This document shows, in pieces, positions 1,781 to 60,849 of a DNA stretch of 64,000 nt. The stretch lies in the NCBI RefSeq assembly GCF_030540765.1, contig NZ_JAUOEL010000008.1, positions 62,001-126,000 on the forward strand, in the 5' to 3' direction. Source of the DNA: Flavivirga jejuensis (lineage in GTDB: Bacteria > Bacteroidota > Bacteroidia > Flavobacteriales > Flavobacteriaceae). Position 1 is the first letter of the stretch; each line of letters opens with the position of its first letter. The notes under the pieces are model-generated. The model was not told where the DNA came from. It did not search any database and saw nothing but the letters and a program-made list of their open reading frames with translations. The translations under genes and the position numbers were made by a program.

Positions 1781-1943
1781 GCCACGAATTCACGAATATT
1801 GATGTCTAACATTATTTATAAAGACGAGAGCATCAATATGGTTGGAGTACTATTCGAAGTTTATAACAATTTAGGCAGTGGTTTTTTAGAAATTTATTAG
1901 ACCACAAAAGAATCGTATTATAAAATATTCGTGAATTCGTGGC
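1781..1943. repeat. 163-bp cassette bounded by a perfect 20-bp inverted repeat
   Basis: The left arm GCCACGAATTCACGAATATT (1781-1800) and right arm AATATTCGTGAATTCGTGGC (1924-1943) are exact reverse complements. Between them lies a relic of a GxxExxY protein gene. Related ATTCGTG-type motifs occur at 33855, 56169 and 59289. The right arm runs into the 5' end of the cca gene, creating a spurious in-frame GTG at 1939. No obvious target-site duplication was seen. The size and symmetry resemble a MITE or REP-type element. Confidence 0.85.
1802..1900 (+). pseudogene. truncated relic of a GxxExxY (PDDEXK_3-like) protein gene
   Basis: The ATG at 1802 opens 32 codons ending at TAG 1900. They read like the conserved start of GxxExxY proteins: an I-I-Y-K-D-E-S opening, then FEVYNNLGSGFLE. 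The diagnostic motif G-x-x-E-x-x-Y is damaged: GFLE is followed by IY and a stop, as if one codon and the rest of the gene (normally about 120-130 residues) were lost. The family is assigned to the PD-(D/E)XK nuclease superfamily (PDDEXK_3), but its role is not established. Being nested inside the 20-bp inverted repeat suggests the gene and the repeat moved or decayed together (inference). Confidence 0.68.
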
Positions 1944-55800: not shown

Positions 55801-56102
55801 TATCTTGTAATGAAAGCTCCTAAAAAAATGAAAATAAAAGCTAAATGCAACGTTAAAGTCGCCCATTTTTCTTTTTTATACAATCGGAATCTAAAAATAT
55901 TACCTGTAAAATTTATTACAAAAAATACCATAATGGCTTCAAACCACCAGGTATTGTAAATTAAATTTCTAGTATATGGCGTTGGTGACATTTCTTGTCC
56001 TACATCTAAAAATGTTCCTGTTGCCATAGCCGCTGCAAAGGCAATAAATAAAAAAGCAGTAAGACGTGTAGAGAATAGGATATTGGCGAGTTTATTTTGC
56101 AT
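52827..56102 (-). CDS. cytochrome c biogenesis protein, ResB-CcsA fusion
   Basis: The 1091 residues join a ResB (Ccs1)-like N-terminal half to a CcsA-like C-terminal half, the single-chain CcsBA haem exporter/synthetase of system II. The N-terminal half has three TM segments near the start (about 10-110), a large periplasmic part (about 115-425), and TM segments at about 430-455. The C-terminal half begins near 735 with a further series of TMs and contains the tryptophan-rich haem-handling motif WGRYWGWDPKETWALI near 1000. A second periplasmic region (about 500-720) has a His-rich start (SANDGHGHS). It attaches haem to apocytochromes. Confidence 0.93.
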   Translation of the reverse strand: MQNKLANILFSTRLTAFLFIAFAAAMATGTFLDVGQEMSPTPYTRNLIYNTWWFEAIMVFFVINFTGNIFRFRLYKKEKWATLTLHLAFIFIFLGAFITRYAGFEGMMAIREGATENTFLSSDTYVIGQIVGDYKINGQLQQRYLESKVDFSGRLENDFKIETDYNKQPVTIELEKFILGAEEDIVPNENGESYLKIVEAGGSGPHNHFLKLGEVQSIHNILFALNKPTTGAINITYNKDGLTIQSPFEGEYMTMATRAQGKLVKDSLQPLILRSRYIIGNMQMVFPKPVVKGVFDVVKKAQFLKNDADGAVFKVTANGETKRVGLLGGKGINGNYKEVEIGGLEFALKYGSKVLELPFNIKLNDFEAERYPGTEKGYSAYSSQVTVLDEKEGDFDYKIFMNNILDHGGYRFFQSGFDPDEKGTILSVNHDYWGSLITYIGYFMLYFGMMAILFSKHSRFGDLKNQLNKVKSKKAKLLTVLLLCFGLNMFSQEHSANDGHGHSKPTKSQIDSILTANIVPKAHADEFGHLVIQDLSGRMMPVNTYASEMLRKLSKNDTYEDFDANQVFLSIQESPTLWYNVPIIYLKYKKADSIRKMIGVSKDAKYATLADFFTEYGDYKLEPYLDEAYKAQVPNGFQKEFIEANQRVSLLYNTVEGMSLKIFPIPDDENNKWISTYDYRHGNFKIKDSLYGNFIKNGFGVYLYTLNQAKQTNDFSEASKLLKAFKKTQHQYGAEVMLSDDKVHTEVLYNRYDIFKKLFSWYLYAGSLFFILLIIQIFKDKNDTLNVTVTVFKWIILGLFILHTGGLIVRWYISGHAPWSDAYESMIYVAWSTMLFGFITGLSKKQEKISPEGATSTLSRIIVPIIGVFNRKSSDLTIAASAFVTSMILMIAHWNWMDPAIANLQPVLNSYWLMIHVAVIVASYGPFTLGMILGVVSLLLMIFTTKENKEKMLLNIKELTIINEMALTVGLVMLTIGNFLGGMWANESWGRYWGWDPKETWALISIMIYAFVIHMRLIPGLRGRWFFSLMSIVAFASILMTYFGVNFYLAGLHSYASGDQIVSVKFIAIACVIIFVLAGFAYRGYAKYYKK

Positions 56103-56168
56103 AATTCGACCCCGTTTTTAAGGTTGTGCAAATTTACGGATTTATACTAATTAAACCTTATATGTATT

Positions 56169-56189
56169 GCCACGAATTTCACTAATATT
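56169..56189. repeat. diverged ATTCGTG-family arm
   Basis: GCCACGAATTTCACTAATATT aligns to the left arm at 1781 with one inserted base and one mismatch. No matching right arm was found in the neighbouring spacer. Confidence 0.65.
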
Positions 56190-56314
56190 ATGTTAATTAA
56201 ATGGAAGCATATAATGGGTTCTGTTTTTTAGGTAATATTATAATGAATTCTGTAACAACTGTATAGTATATGATTATCGAAGCTGTTCTACTCAAACATC
56301 TTATTTATAATTGT

Positions 56315-56440
56315 AAAGACGCGAAGACGCAAAGTTAAATGGCTTCTCTTATTACCATTAACTAAATAGTTTCCATAACAACCAACTTATGTTTACTGAA
56401 TATTGTATATTGGTACGCGCAAAGACGCTAAGGCGCAAAG
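56315..56440. repeat. two period-8 CGCAAAGA microrepeats
   Basis: AAAGACGCGAAGACGCAAAG (56315-56334) and a 25-bp stretch at 56416-56440, CGCAAAGA-CGCTAAGG-CGCAAAG after a CG, are direct repeats with a period of 8. They lie in the 457-bp spacer 56103-56559, which has no gene. Related octamers occur at 56989 and in each unit of the array at 58503. Confidence 0.7.
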
Positions 56441-56496
56441 CTAAATTAATTACTAAATTAAATTACCTCAATATTTATCAAAATAACTAACTGGAG

Positions 56497-56552
56497 ACTG
56501 TCTACTATTTACTGAGCACTGTTTACTGAATACTGTTTACTGAATACCGTTT
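56497..56552. repeat. 14-bp tandem repeat, four units
   Basis: Consensus ACTGAATACTGTTT repeats at 56497, 56511, 56525 and 56539 with few changes, then a partial unit. A related single copy is at about 56392. It ends 8 bp before the haemoglobin stop and is a candidate variable-number locus. Confidence 0.75.
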
Positions 56553-56559
56553 ACTAAAT

Positions 56560-56955
56560 TCATCTTGCTTCAAATATTTTTAAATATAAAAACGTACTCA
56601 TTTTTCTAGCTCTTCTTTTTGCATTATCAGCGTAGTTACCTTCAAAAAGCTCGTCGACAGTTTCAAACCATAAATTCATCCATAGTCCAAAATGTAATTC
56701 TGAAATGCTATGGTTACTTTCTTTATCAACTTTAATATGAGCTTCTAACGGATTCCCTAAATACTTTTGTTCTAGTTTACGTGTCATAAAAAGGCTCGAT
56801 TCCCAAAACGTTGTTAAGCGTTCTAAATGTGTATCCCAATCTTTAATAACATTATTAAAAAAGGGCGCTAATACAGTATCCTTTCTTACTTTATTATAAA
56901 ATGATGATACTAATAAAAACACATCGTCTCTGGTTTTAATATCTTGTTTAGCCAT
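56560..56955 (-). CDS. group III truncated haemoglobin
   Basis: From ATG 56955 the 131 residues show the 2-on-2 globin of group III: LLVSSFYNKVR with Tyr20 (B10), FFNNVIKDWDTHLERLTTFWESSL, NPLEAHIKV with the proximal His at about 73, and HFGLWMNLWFETVDELFEG. An in-frame ATG at 56997 lies in a repeat-derived leader. Group III globins are linked to peroxide or nitric oxide chemistry; the substrate is not known here. It is surrounded on both sides by microrepeats. Confidence 0.87.
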   Translation of the reverse strand: MAKQDIKTRDDVFLLVSSFYNKVRKDTVLAPFFNNVIKDWDTHLERLTTFWESSLFMTRKLEQKYLGNPLEAHIKVDKESNHSISELHFGLWMNLWFETVDELFEGNYADNAKRRARKMSTFLYLKIFEAR

Positions 56956-56988
56956 AGGATACAAATTTAAACTTTTTATTCTCTCATT

Positions 56989-57009
56989 AAGCCGCAAGGT
57001 CGCAAAGAA
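56989..57009. repeat. CGCAAAG microrepeat upstream of the haemoglobin gene
   Basis: AAGCCGCAAGGTCGCAAAGA contains two degenerate units of the period-8 motif, 34 bp upstream of the chosen start. Confidence 0.55.
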
Positions 57010-57165
57010 TTGAAGATAAAAAAATCAATGACAAGGAATAGTCAATAGGTTATAAATAATTTAATTTTTACTAAAATATGTGATTAAAAATACTACTAAA
57101 AACCTTTAAATTAAAAAATCGTAATTCATAATTAATAATTCGTAATTCGTTAGTATTTTAGCGAT

Positions 57166-57933
57166 ATGATTTCAGTAGTAATTCTCGGTTCAGGCAATGT
57201 TGCAACTCATTTATTTAAGGCTTTTAATAAAGCTGAAAATGTTGTTATAAATCAATGGTATAGTAGAAATATAAGCACCATAACTTCTTACAACAAAGAG
57301 GTTGAAATTATTGATGATTTGTCATTAATTAAAGATGCCGATGTTTATATTTTAGCAATAAGCGATGATGCTATTTCTGAGCTTTCGACCCAACTTCCAT
57401 TTGAAGATAAATTAGTACTGCATACTTCTGGAAGTGTTAGTGTTTACGACATAGATAAAAAACATAAGCGTGGGGTGTTCTATCCGCTTCAAACGTTTAG
57501 TAAAGAGGCTGAAATAGATTTTGCTAATGTGCCAATTTGCATTGAAACTATCGATAAAAAATGTGCTCCTATTATAAAGGATTTAGCTTTATCCATTGGT
57601 AGTCCTACAAAAAGAGTCAATAGCGACCAGCGTAAAGTATTGCATTTAGCTGCTGTTTTTGTGAATAATTTCACTAATCAACTTTATAGAATTGGACACG
57701 AGATAACAGAAAGCCAAGGTGCTGAATTCGACCTTTTAAAACCTCTTATTCTGGAAACGGCTAAAAAAGTACAAGATTTATCTCCTTATAAAGCACAAAC
57801 AGGGCCTGCAAAACGTCATGATAAGAAAACAATACGCAAGCATTTAAAGCTTTTAGAAGATCAACACCACAAAGATATTTACCAACTACTAACCACCTCT
57901 ATAAAACATACGCATGGAAGAAAAAAGCTATAA
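57166..57933 (+). CDS. Rossmann-like and DUF2520 domain-containing protein
   Basis: The 255 residues start VVILGSGNVATHLFKAF, an NAD(P)-binding glycine loop. ADVYILAISDDAI and VLHTSGSVSVYDI follow, then GVFYPLQTFSK, as in 6-phosphogluconate-dehydrogenase-like folds. The C-terminal DUF2520 part has AAVFVNNFTNQLYRIG and TGPAKRHDKKTI. It resembles F420-dependent or ketopantoate-type reductases; the substrate is unknown. It overlaps the KdsC-like gene by 20 bp, so the two are translationally coupled. Confidence 0.88.
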   Translation: MISVVILGSGNVATHLFKAFNKAENVVINQWYSRNISTITSYNKEVEIIDDLSLIKDADVYILAISDDAISELSTQLPFEDKLVLHTSGSVSVYDIDKKHKRGVFYPLQTFSKEAEIDFANVPICIETIDKKCAPIIKDLALSIGSPTKRVNSDQRKVLHLAAVFVNNFTNQLYRIGHEITESQGAEFDLLKPLILETAKKVQDLSPYKAQTGPAKRHDKKTIRKHLKLLEDQHHKDIYQLLTTSIKHTHGRKKL

Positions 57934-58444
57934 AGAATACTTAGAACACATCACAACTTTTATATTTGATGTAGATGGTGTTTTAACGGATGGTACTGTA
58001 ACAGTAACGTCTTCTGGTGATATGCTACGAAATATGAACATTAAAGATGGGTATGCCTTAAAAACGGCCGTTGATATGGGGTATCATGTTTGCATTATTT
58101 CTGGAGGGTCTAACGAAGGGGTTCGCATCCGTTTACAAGGGTTGGGTATTTCTAATATCTATTTAGGTGCGCATAATAAAATTGAACAGTTAGATGAATA
58201 CCTTAACACAAACGGTATTAAATCTGAAAACGTGCTTTATATGGGGGATGATATTCCTGATTTCCCTGTTATGAAACGTCTTGGCTTACCTTGCTGTCCT
58301 CAAGATGCTGTTCCTGAAATAAAGAATATATCTAAATATATTTCTCATAAAAAAGGTGGTAAGGGTGCCGCTCGTGATGTTATTGAACAGGTACTGAAAG
58401 TACAGGAGAAATGGCATGGTAATTTTGTGGCTAAGTATGATTAA
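57914..58444 (+). CDS. KdsC-like HAD phosphatase (3-deoxy-manno-octulosonate-8-P phosphatase family)
   Basis: The 176 residues lack a cap domain, as expected for KdsC-type HAD-IIIA phosphatases. The nucleophile loop is FIFDVDGVLTDGTV (D19 and D21); later motifs are IISGGSNEGVRIR and MGDDIPDFPVMKRLGL, ending with GAARDVIEQVL. In Gram-negative lipopolysaccharide synthesis such an enzyme removes the phosphate of Kdo-8-P; direct proof of that substrate is lacking. The 165-bp tandem array starts 59 bp downstream. Confidence 0.87.
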   Translation: MEEKSYKEYLEHITTFIFDVDGVLTDGTVTVTSSGDMLRNMNIKDGYALKTAVDMGYHVCIISGGSNEGVRIRLQGLGISNIYLGAHNKIEQLDEYLNTNGIKSENVLYMGDDIPDFPVMKRLGLPCCPQDAVPEIKNISKYISHKKGGKGAARDVIEQVLKVQEKWHGNFVAKYD

Positions 58445-58502
58445 ATTCTGTTTGCAGTATTTAGAAATTAGTAACTCGTTTATTTGTAATTTTAATCTAT
58501 AA

Positions 58503-59314
58503 TATGTGGTTATTGGTTACCAAAGGCTTGGAGACGCTAAGTTGTTAGGAATAAAAATACATTATATTGTTGTATTGATTTAGGCAAGGAATGATATTGG
58601 GTTAAGTAAATAATATCATATTTGTGGTAATCTTTTTTATTTTAGTTAAATATTGAATTTTTGAAGCTATATGGTTGTTGGCTCGCAAAGGTGCGGAGAC
58701 GCTAAGTTGTTAGGAATGAAAACGCATTATATTGTTGTATTGATTTAGAAAAGGAATGGTATTGGGTTAAGTAAATGATATCATATTTGTGGTAATCTTT
58801 TTTATTTTAGTTAAATATTGAATTTTTGAAGCTATATGGTTGTTGGCTCGCAAAGGTGCGGAGACGCTAAGTTGTTAGGAATAAAAACGCATTATATTGT
58901 TGTATTGATTTAGGAAAGGAATGGTATTGGGTTAAGTAAATAATATCATATTTGTGGTAATCTTTTTTATTTTAGTTAAATATTGAATTTTTGAAGCTAT
59001 GTGGTTATTGGCTCGCTAAGACGCGGAGACGCTAAGTTGTTAGGAATAAAAACGCATTATGTTGTATTGATTTAGACAAGGAATGGTATTGGGTTAAGTA
59101 AATGATATCATATTTGTGGTAATAGTTTTTAATTTCGGCTAAATATTGAATTTTTGAACTATATATAATTGTTTGCTCGCTAAGACGCGGAGACGCTAAG
59201 TTTTTAGGAATAAAAGTGTATTATATTGGGACATATTGTTGTATTTATTTAGACAAGGAATGGTATTGGGTTAAGTAAATAATATCATATTCGTGTATTC
59301 GTGGCAAATCTTTT
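58503..59314. repeat. 165-bp tandem repeat array, about five units
   Basis: The landmark GAGACGCTAAG occurs at 58531, 58696, 58861, 59026 and 59190, so spacings are 165, 165, 165 and 164 bp. Each unit has the CGC.AAGA.CGCGGAGACGC microrepeat, a G-rich GGAATGGTATTGGGTTAAGTA block and an ATATCATATT..GTGG end. The last unit alone keeps the full TTCGTGTATTCGTGGC form. Units 2 and 3 are nearly identical, while the outer units differ more. No open frame runs through the array. It fills the 898-bp gap between the KdsC-like and UbiA genes. Confidence 0.92.
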
Positions 59315-59342
59315 AATTATTCATTTTAATTTTAAATAAACA

Positions 59343-60263
59343 TTGGACTTCTTAAACCTCATCCGCTGGAAAAATTTACTTATGATTGCTCTTGTGCAAT
59401 TACTTATTAAGTATGCTTTTTTAGAGCCTTTTGGGGCTCAAATAAGTTTAACGTCTTTAGGTATTACGCTTTTAATACTCGCTACTGTTTCTATTGCTGC
59501 TGCTGGAAATATTATTAATGACATATATGATGTTGAAACCGATTTTGTGAACAAACCAAATAGGGTCATTATAGGTAAATCCATTTCAGAAAAAATGGCT
59601 TATAATTTATTTATTGCTTTTAATATTATTGGTGTTGGTCTTGGCTTCTATTTATCTCATAGGGTTGGAAAAAGCCCTTTCTTTTCCCTTTTTGTTATTA
59701 TTTCTGCATTACTTTATGTCTATGCAACGTATTTAAAACGAACGCTTTTAATAGGAAATATCATTATTTCTGTATTAGTAGCCCTTAGTATTATTATTGT
59801 TGGTGTATTTGAATTACTTCCTTCTACTACACCTCAAAATCAGCCATTTCAATTAGCTTTTTTTAAGATTATTTTCAATTATGCCATATTTGCTTTTATC
59901 ATCAATTTATTACGAGAAATAGCCAAAGACATTGAAGATATTGATGGTGATCATAAAGCAGGTATGAATACCTTACCTATTGTAATTGGCAGAGAGCGTG
60001 CTAGTAAAGTATTATTCGTTTTATCTCTGGTACCGCTTTTTGTTATTACTTTATATACAATTGAATCTCTGTATAAAAATCAAATAGCTGTTATTTACTT
60101 TTTACTATTGGTAATTGGTCCTTTATTCTATATAAGCATTAAAGCTTTTAGTGCTAAAACAAAAAAAGATTATCACCATATTAGTAACATCCTCAAATTA
60201 GTAATGCTTTTCGGAATGCTTTCCTTACTTTTATACAAGTATATTATTCTAAATTATGCTTAA
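59343..60263 (+). CDS. UbiA-family prenyltransferase (geranylgeranylglycerol-phosphate synthase-like)
   Basis: The 306 residues have about eight hydrophobic segments and both aspartate motifs of UbiA enzymes: NDIYDVETDFVNKPNR (about 60-75) and EIAKDIEDIDGDHKAGMNTL (about 195-215). The enzyme joins an isoprenoid diphosphate to an acceptor. The start is a TTG at 59343; no ATG precedes the conserved FLNLIRWKNLL opening. The array's last ATTCGTG motif ends about 30 bp upstream, so this promoter region may be repeat-derived. It overlaps the maf start by 8 bp. Confidence 0.85.
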   Translation: MDFLNLIRWKNLLMIALVQLLIKYAFLEPFGAQISLTSLGITLLILATVSIAAAGNIINDIYDVETDFVNKPNRVIIGKSISEKMAYNLFIAFNIIGVGLGFYLSHRVGKSPFFSLFVIISALLYVYATYLKRTLLIGNIIISVLVALSIIIVGVFELLPSTTPQNQPFQLAFFKIIFNYAIFAFIINLLREIAKDIEDIDGDHKAGMNTLPIVIGRERASKVLFVLSLVPLFVITLYTIESLYKNQIAVIYFLLLVIGPLFYISIKAFSAKTKKDYHHISNILKLVMLFGMLSLLLYKYIILNYA

Positions 60264-60849
60264 CAAAAGACTAAAAAACCACCATATCATTTTAGCTTCT
60301 GGTTCTCCCAGAAGACAAGAGTTTTTCAAAAATTTAGGTTTAGATTTCGAAATCATTTTAAAACCCGTAAAAGAAGAATATCCGCCACGTTTAATCCATT
60401 TTGAAATTAGTAACTATCTGGCTCAATTAAAAGCACTTCCTTTTAAAAAGGAATTAAAGGACAATGAGATTCTTATTACCAGTGATACTATTGTTTGGCA
60501 CAATAATGAGGCTTTAGGAAAACCTAGAGACAAAGATGAAGCTTTCGCTATTTTAAAATCTTTAAGTAATACGACTCACGAAGTCATTACATCGGTTTGC
60601 TTTACTACTAAAACTTTTGAAAAAACATTACACGCTATTACCAAGGTAACTTTCAAAGCTCTTAGCGATGATGAAATCGAATACTACATAAACACCTGCA
60701 AACCTTATGATAAAGCAGGTGCTTATGGTATTCAAGAATGGATAGGTCAAATAGCCGTGACCAAGTTAGAAGGTTCTTATTTTAATGTTATGGGTCTACC
60801 CACTCATCTTGTTTACAAAACGTTAAATGATATTGTTGACGCATCTTAA
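60256..60849 (+). CDS. maf: Maf-like nucleoside triphosphate pyrophosphatase
   Basis: The 197 residues have the family start IILASGSPRRQEFFKNLGLDF (12-32) and ITSDTIVW with the catalytic Asp near 77. LGKPRDKDEAFAILKSLS and DKAGAYGIQEWIG follow. Maf proteins hydrolyse dTTP, UTP or modified nucleotides as a housecleaning function; which one is not decidable. It overlaps the UbiA gene by 8 bp and probably shares its transcript. Confidence 0.92.
   Translation: MLNKRLKNHHIILASGSPRRQEFFKNLGLDFEIILKPVKEEYPPRLIHFEISNYLAQLKALPFKKELKDNEILITSDTIVWHNNEALGKPRDKDEAFAILKSLSNTTHEVITSVCFTTKTFEKTLHAITKVTFKALSDDEIEYYINTCKPYDKAGAYGIQEWIGQIAVTKLEGSYFNVMGLPTHLVYKTLNDIVDAS

Follow-up and report, generated by a model that had tools for sequence, protein, structure and literature searches.

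A 165-bp non-coding tandem array in a flavobacterial genome and the short-period repeats that bracket GxxExxY genes

The small dispersed repeats of Nostoc are 21–27 nt long and often lie within heptamer arrays. They are mentioned in passages of a study (PMC3116915) that describe REPINs and RAYTs, a system of REP doublets and a single-copy tyrosine transposase. Bacterial heptanucleotide repeats are represented by TAACTGA (PMC4679880) and GGGAATC (PMC4692102); in the excerpts of both papers the excess of heptamers in bacteria is treated as known, and polymerase slippage is proposed as its origin. The intervening sequences of rRNA, according to an excerpt of PMC4990558, are sited in rRNA genes, carry an S23/four-helix-bundle ORF of the PF05635 family, and are excised by RNase III. 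Prokaryotic satellites (PMC6749651) and Borg tandem repeats (PMC9879509) appear in the passages at hand as tandem sequences, many of them non-coding, with the Borg repeats evolving quickly. Here we compare with these systems a 165-bp tandem array from a 64,000-nt stretch of the Flavivirga jejuensis genome (the window).

The array and its spacer

The window contains one long-period tandem array, which TRF places at 58530–59295 with a period of 165 bp, 4.6 copies, and 90% matches (Table 1). Each unit holds the 25-bp motif CTCGCNRAGNCGCNRAGNCGCNAAG, termed here the A-type repeat, a degenerate octamer with an 8-bp step whose copies in the array are direct rather than inverted. The starts of the motif copies reproduce the spacings of 165, 165, 165, and 164 bp given in an earlier, sequence-only reading. 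The recent amplification or homogenization proposed there is supported by the near-identity of the middle units in the alignment: by eye, three positions distinguish unit 2 from unit 3, and divergence is greatest in units 1 and 5. ORFs of at least 50 aa are lacking within 58445–59342, and the longest of the nine ORFs of at least 20 aa that overlap the array spacer measures 28 aa. A coding repeat is thus ruled out, in agreement with the earlier description of the array as non-coding. The neighboring ORFs on the + strand, at 57914–58444 on the left and 59343–60263 on the right, are presumably KdsC-like and UbiA-like, and we take the ORF at 60256–60849, beyond the latter, to be Maf-like; these gene names had been given before and are consistent with the ORFs. 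The units weakly resemble the start region of ubiA, with alignment scores of 21–26, a likeness too near chance to carry weight. The array is found once in the 6.0-Mb genome; all other matches to it at E ≤ 0.001 are motif-sized, about 40 bp long.

Table 1. Repeat features of the window, with positions counted from its first nucleotide.
Feature	Position	Strand	Remarks
Five-unit 165-bp non-coding tandem array	58503–59314	+	TRF core 58530–59295; unit alignment
A-type repeat, array copy 1	58517–58541	+	Decayed; departs from the 25-bp pattern at 5 positions
A-type repeat CTCGCNRAGNCGCNRAGNCGCNAAG, array copy 2	58682–58706	+	1 mismatch
A-type repeat, array copy 3	58847–58871	+	1 mismatch
A-type repeat, array copy 4	59012–59036	+	Exact
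A-type repeat, array copy 5	59176–59200	+	Exact
C-type repeat ATTCGTGTATTCGTGGC	59289–59305	−	At the end of the last array unit; another GxxExxY subfamily has terminal repeats of this type
C-type inverted repeats around a GxxExxY-like remnant	1781–1943	+	20 bp, perfect; remnant reads ...VGVLFEVYNNLGSGFLEIY, then stop
Single dispersed A-type repeat	56416–56440	+	1 mismatch; 2.1 kb before the array

The copy-number comparison suggested by the sequence-only reading was carried out with TRF at the same locus in 12 genomes of the genus, and the 165-bp array was found in the window genome alone, being absent from the other 11. The kdsC–ubiA spacer varies from 98 to 902 bp across these genomes. Among 80 named Flavobacteriaceae loci, a UbiA match lies downstream in 58, with a gap of at most 152 bp in 42 of the 58. 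A single A-type-like copy is already present in the spacer of three of the 12 genus genomes (L061, L064, and L065), and a more diverged copy was recognized by eye in L066. Heptamer tandem repeats occupy the post-kdsC spacer in eight of the 12 (L059, L060, L062, L063, and L065–L068), no more than 10 bp from the kdsC stop codon in six of these eight; they mostly differ in sequence (TAGATGT, AGTGTTC, GAAGTTT, GATGACT, and others). A small conserved ORF (...RRHSTGFGYIGFGNN...) is present in the spacer of many relatives, for example, L061, L069, and L075; none was seen in that of the window genome. The spacer is therefore a site of turnover, which holds other repeats or the small ORF in many relatives. 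The earlier proposal of an insertion between genes that are adjacent in relatives agrees with the short gaps, but not with a spacer that so often holds other material and, in three genomes, a motif copy. Because single motif copies are already there and the spacer turns over, it is more likely that the array arose by amplification of resident material than as one inserted block.

Repeats that bracket GxxExxY and four-helix-bundle genes

The 25-bp A-type pattern has 48 matches in the window genome at up to two mismatches (two of them overlap), versus none for the pattern read backwards. According to a tally of the match table, 45 of the 48 fall into 12 clusters and three are single. TRF detects tandem arrays at eight of the clusters, with periods of 86, 149 (twice), 165, 167, 185, 207, and 209 bp; the remaining four are two- or three-copy clusters with partly similar flanks. 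All 66 cluster pairs were compared with the motif masked, a procedure that gave one match in total at E 0.01 and none at 1e-5 over ten runs with shuffled queries. The window array and clusters L043, L045, L049, and L054 matched no other cluster, so that in these five the motif is what recurs. L044, L046, L048, L050, and L052 have a unit outside the motif in common, mostly 68–76% alike over 61–119 bp, and a longer dispersed element of roughly 100 bp, not the motif alone, appears to recur there. L046 and L050 are 93% alike, and their two contigs end within a 149-bp array; they are probably one array divided between contigs that are neighbors. L047 and L051 have a 47-bp heptamer stretch in common. 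The window unit itself was rejected as a dispersed element owing to its single genomic occurrence and the lack of a masked match to the other 11 clusters. The guess of the sequence-only reading that comes closest, an expanding mobile repeat, is thus apt for the motif, which is dispersed, and fails for the whole unit.

Beyond this genome, A-type matches number 1 to 30 in each of the other 11 genomes of the genus. The motif was found in 17 of a set of 80 genomes that includes this one and its genus, and in 70 of 296 from across the phylum, this one again among them. Inverted A-type pairs about 8–20 bp apart are found in other Bacteroidota, such as G103, G277, and G246. Close inverted pairs also occur in 5 of 31 viral-contig stretches (L178, L186, L187, L192, and L193), oriented opposite to the gene brackets described below; no A-type GxxExxY relative could be confirmed in a scan of viral contigs.

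The genes of one GxxExxY (TIGR04256/PF13366, PD-(D/E)XK) subfamily have the A-type motif as their terminal inverted repeat. The motif is present at 10 of 30 GxxExxY (PF13366) loci, with 32 matches or 3.2 per 10 kb; where it flanks the gene on both sides, it is in + orientation to the left and in − orientation to the right. Named kdsC loci have it in 4 of 80 cases (0.06 per 10 kb). The motif was found at none of 30 Y1-transposase (PF01797) loci and at one of 30 four-helix-bundle loci, where it is not adjacent to the gene; both a Y1 transposase or RAYT and the four-helix-bundle genes were accordingly rejected as A-type partners. A search made without the motif found inverted short repeats (inverted-repeat score of 30 or more) bracketing 30 of 41 GxxExxY genes in 14 genomes, the sample being 41 of 45 PF13366 rows after four fragments or weak rows were dropped. 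Two control sets were scored as well. The first, taken at other Flavobacteriaceae loci (the named kdsC loci) instead of in the 14 genomes, gave 7 of 439 ORFs; the second and closer one, with ORFs of the same genomes or of others in the genus, gave 0 of 146. Inverted repeats of other, REP-like sequence were present at 8 of the 27 Y1 loci (of 30) with enough flank for the score. Inverted repeats at GxxExxY loci outnumber direct ones by 30 to 8, a ratio unfavorable to the idea that the gene inserted into a pre-existing array.

The bracketing repeats are short-period and vary with the subfamily: type A is a CGCNRAG octamer, type B is CACAGAG, type C CACGAAT, and type D CATATAAG, and there are a few more. 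On the GxxExxY tree the repeat types require 8 label changes, compared with a shuffled mean of 23.8 and 0 of 200 shuffles as low, for labels set by hand from the bracket listing and with near-identical relatives inflating the clustering. Types A to D cluster on the tree, and the three-row type E does not. A label-free test, in which the left flank of one locus was set against the right flank, reversed, of a second for pairs below 75% protein identity, related flank similarity to protein identity with a Mantel r of 0.352 (0/1000). The repeat type follows the GxxExxY protein clade. Sixteen members, of which 10 are A-type, all have the PD-(D/E)XK-like active-site residues D62, E72, and K74 and the G, E, and Y that give the family its name. 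Comparison with the PDB by sequence gave nothing convincing for GxxExxY (best E 0.045).

The A-type gene, an open frame of 133 codons in the window genome, occupies one orthologous place in eight genus genomes. Hopping of the gene within the genus was rejected since all eight loci are orthologous, and in this the gene resembles a RAYT. Gene presence was set against motif numbers in 80 genomes, which were chosen by known motif count and are not a random sample. Among the matches listed, six genus genomes with a full-length A-type gene have 11–48 motif matches (G000 48, G001 17, G003 18, G005 12, G007 11, and G008 12). Likewise among the matches listed, the gene is truncated in G004 (30 motif matches), broken in G009 (21), partial in G011 (3), and a pseudogene in G010 (3), and G006 (9) and G002 (1) have only weak gene matches. 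Outside the genus, the matches listed include a relative of at least 64% identity in seven genomes, all of which, in this selection by motif count, carry the motif (G017 5, G300 12, G052 40, G246 24, G319 18, G131 1, and G250 33). G103 has 83 motif matches, yet its best A-type gene match among those listed is 49% identical. Motif numbers thus do not track the A-type gene one to one. In five genomes (L041, L246, L249, L252, and L264), regularly spaced motif clusters adjoin the A-type gene. Two arrays of the window genome lie beside GxxExxY genes. In L045 (2918–3951), 4.9 units of 207 bp contain A-type inverted pairs, like a miniature bracket without a gene, and adjoin the A-type gene; in L056 (2660–3038), a 146-bp-period array with a CACAGAG-type motif reaches the start of the B-type gene.

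The C-type repeat that closes the array is of the same type as the brackets at 1781–1943, which lie between genes we take to be Sua5/YrdC-like and CCA-adding-enzyme-like. This inverted pair folds strongly (z −7.8). The same site in the 12 genus genomes holds the remnant or shorter bracketed versions (L421–L426), a bare hairpin (L430), the left end only (L427), or a heptamer array instead (L431), and the C-type repeat is absent in L428, L429, and L432. The simplest reading of this apparent decay is a bracketed GxxExxY gene reduced to bare repeats. No target-site duplication was recognized by eye at the site in the 12 genomes, and no dated empty site was found. Further repeats occur in the spacers at 56100–57170, around a gene that is presumably globin-like: besides the A-type copy in Table 1, these are a C-type repeat at 56169, an A-type repeat at about 56318, a heptamer array at 56503–56559 (TRF period 14, that is, two 7-bp units), and a piece of CGCAAGGTCGCAAAG near 56993.

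Four-helix-bundle genes (PF05635) are bracketed as well. Strong inverted repeats are present at 36 of 88 loci versus 6 of 439 controls, and a period of 7 on both sides of the gene at 19 of 88 versus 1 of 439. The sample comprises 90 of 123 matches, mostly the best-scoring, of which 88 had enough flank (L296–L325 and L338–L397). Inverted repeats number 36 and direct ones 6, and the label-free flank test gave a Mantel r of 0.282 (0/1000). Searched against the PDB by sequence, the protein matches 2rld and 2gsc. Comparison of nine post-kdsC heptamers with the four-helix-bundle flanks of the genus gave a mixed result: five rank high against permuted heptamers (0, 3, 1, 0, and 1 of 40 as good), and the other four do not (23, 38, 7, and 16 of 40).

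Candidate origins of the array

We tentatively favor, at a little under even odds, the view that the array is a lineage-specific satellite without coding content, that it grew from the repeat of a system resembling REPIN/RAYT but built on another protein, and that a nuclease drove its amplification. A 165-bp stretch of the kdsC–ubiA spacer would have been duplicated in tandem and then homogenized, with the 25-bp degenerate octamer repeat making this stretch prone to duplication. The A-type repeat, besides forming the inverted ends of its GxxExxY subfamily, is scattered in the genome as orphans, mostly clustered. The GxxExxY protein may recognize and then cut or nick its own repeat type, and the breaks, when repaired through slippage or through unequal exchange with a nearby repeat, could give rise to both orphan copies and arrays. 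The array itself would be a by-product without host function. Recurrence of the motif in the window array and four further clusters counts in favor of such a motif-driven origin. So do the 48 genomic matches with their 12 clusters, the inverted brackets of GxxExxY genes, the agreement of repeat type with protein clade, the invariant residues, the clusters adjoining the A-type gene in five genomes, and the 11–48 matches in the six genus genomes with a full-length gene. Conversely, the longer unit in 5 of the 12 clusters counts against recurrence of the motif alone, and the nuclease-driven account is also weakened by the single orthologous place of the A-type gene, which does not itself hop, and by motif numbers that fail to match the gene in G004, G009, G006, and G103.

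The array could instead be a passive satellite, in which replication slippage and unequal recombination amplified the spacer and the motif is an inert old repeat left by GxxExxY. We consider this a realistic alternative of roughly one chance in three as a whole, and where the array itself is concerned, passive slippage and unequal exchange among inert repeats come close in likelihood to the protein-driven reading. Near-identical middle units and diverged end units are what unequal exchange yields, the A-type gene is inherited vertically, many motif copies persist where the gene is truncated or broken (30 in G004 and 21 in G009), and the longer unit common to five clusters is expected from copies of one old element. 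It accounts less readily for the clustering of 45 of the 48 matches, for the five clusters, including that of the window, that share nothing but the motif with any other, and for the regularly spaced clusters directly adjoining the cognate gene in five genomes. An assembly artefact is extremely improbable: two contigs do end in what is probably one 149-bp array (L046 and L050), so arrays can trouble assembly, but the window array, whose units are not identical, is far from the ends of its 406-kb contig.

A protein-binding or regulatory array affecting kdsC or ubiA would fit the even spacing of the units and the short motif conserved in them; we regard this as improbable, given that the array is missing at the locus in the other 11 genus genomes, the same motif occurs in 11 other clusters, and the spacer has 5 promoter-like sites versus 7.0 in shuffles and no terminator-like sites. 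The non-coding RNA array suggested by the sequence-only reading fares no better. Against dinucleotide shuffles, neither one unit (z 0.87) nor the whole spacer (z 2.97) folds better than chance, no Rfam family reaches the gathering level (best E 4.1), and the units are direct, not inverted, so the window array does not behave as a structured RNA family. The C-type pair at 1781–1943 does fold, and the four-helix-bundle genes, whose family is encoded in rRNA intervening sequences, are likewise bracketed by inverted repeats; even so, a small structured RNA array, or an RNA-level element with inverted repeats cut by RNase III like those intervening sequences, is very unlikely. A REPIN/RAYT of the usual kind or an insertion-sequence MITE seems just as remote. 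It could claim the inverted pairs in other genomes and viral contigs, the longer unit of the five clusters, and the own inverted repeats, of other sequence, at 8 of 27 Y1 loci. However, the bracketed gene, a GxxExxY gene, is PD-(D/E)XK-like, and the motif is absent from all 30 loci of Y1, the transposase family searched.

A broader, more speculative possibility, to which we give distinctly less than even odds, is that GxxExxY and four-helix-bundle proteins each run cognate short-period repeats and spread them in bacterial spacers as RAYTs spread REPINs. The GxxExxY repeats would be octamer or decamer arrays of the form CRCNRA(G/T) and those of the four-helix-bundle proteins heptamer arrays, with the heptamers and satellites of the 165-bp type as their tracks. 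A link of such repeats to either gene family was not found in the titles, abstract beginnings, and passages of the open-access literature searched. In these texts GxxExxY is the name of one gene or domain with no repeat connection, four-helix-bundle genes appear on this question only as entries in one table of phage regions, and the octamer core has no related occurrence as judged by title. The excerpts of PMC4679880 and PMC4692102 likewise contain no tie of heptamers to four-helix-bundle brackets. Short-period intergenic repeats, ascribed in those excerpts to polymerase slippage, would gain candidate proteins. The two families, common, small, and annotated by fold or motif alone, would gain a testable role, and a concrete reason would be offered for why satellites like the 165-bp array may arise repeatedly in one genome.

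Comparison with described repeat systems

The repeats described here are short and dispersed, as are those of Nostoc. With head-to-tail copies, a long period, and no coding content, the window array qualifies as a prokaryotic satellite. Tandem, non-coding arrays are shared with the satellites and Borg repeats of the passages cited (PMC6749651, PMC9879509); what sets the present clusters apart is a common 25-bp motif, found also as the bracket of a gene. The resemblance to heptanucleotide repeats, as excerpted in PMC4679880 and PMC4692102, lies in the short period, the mostly intergenic location, and the varied heptamers of the kdsC–ubiA spacer in 8 of 12 genus genomes, whereas the window motif advances by 8 bp and not by 7-bp units. 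A small PF05635-type gene bordered by inverted repeats recalls the rRNA intervening sequences of the PMC4990558 excerpt; the PF05635 brackets here, in contrast, are short-period arrays, and the window array lies between the presumed kdsC-like and ubiA-like genes rather than in an rRNA gene.

The closest likeness is to REPINs and RAYTs. In the passages of PMC3116915, as here, short repeats are dispersed in spacers and form regularly spaced tandem arrays, repeat clusters lie beside a single-copy gene, the repeat type is specific to the lineage of the gene, and the gene is vertically inherited within a genus. Specificity of the repeat type to a gene clade is found here too, with GxxExxY in the place of the RAYT. 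REPINs are inverted doublets that form hairpins; here, inverted copies stand close together in several other Bacteroidota and in the five viral stretches, and the copies in the window array are direct. The differences are that the bracketed gene is GxxExxY (PF13366/TIGR04256) and not a Y1 (HUH) transposase, and that the A-type repeat is a degenerate octamer array and not a palindromic REP. The system is thus most like REPIN/RAYT without being a member of it, since its protein belongs to another family and the motif was absent from the Y1 loci examined.
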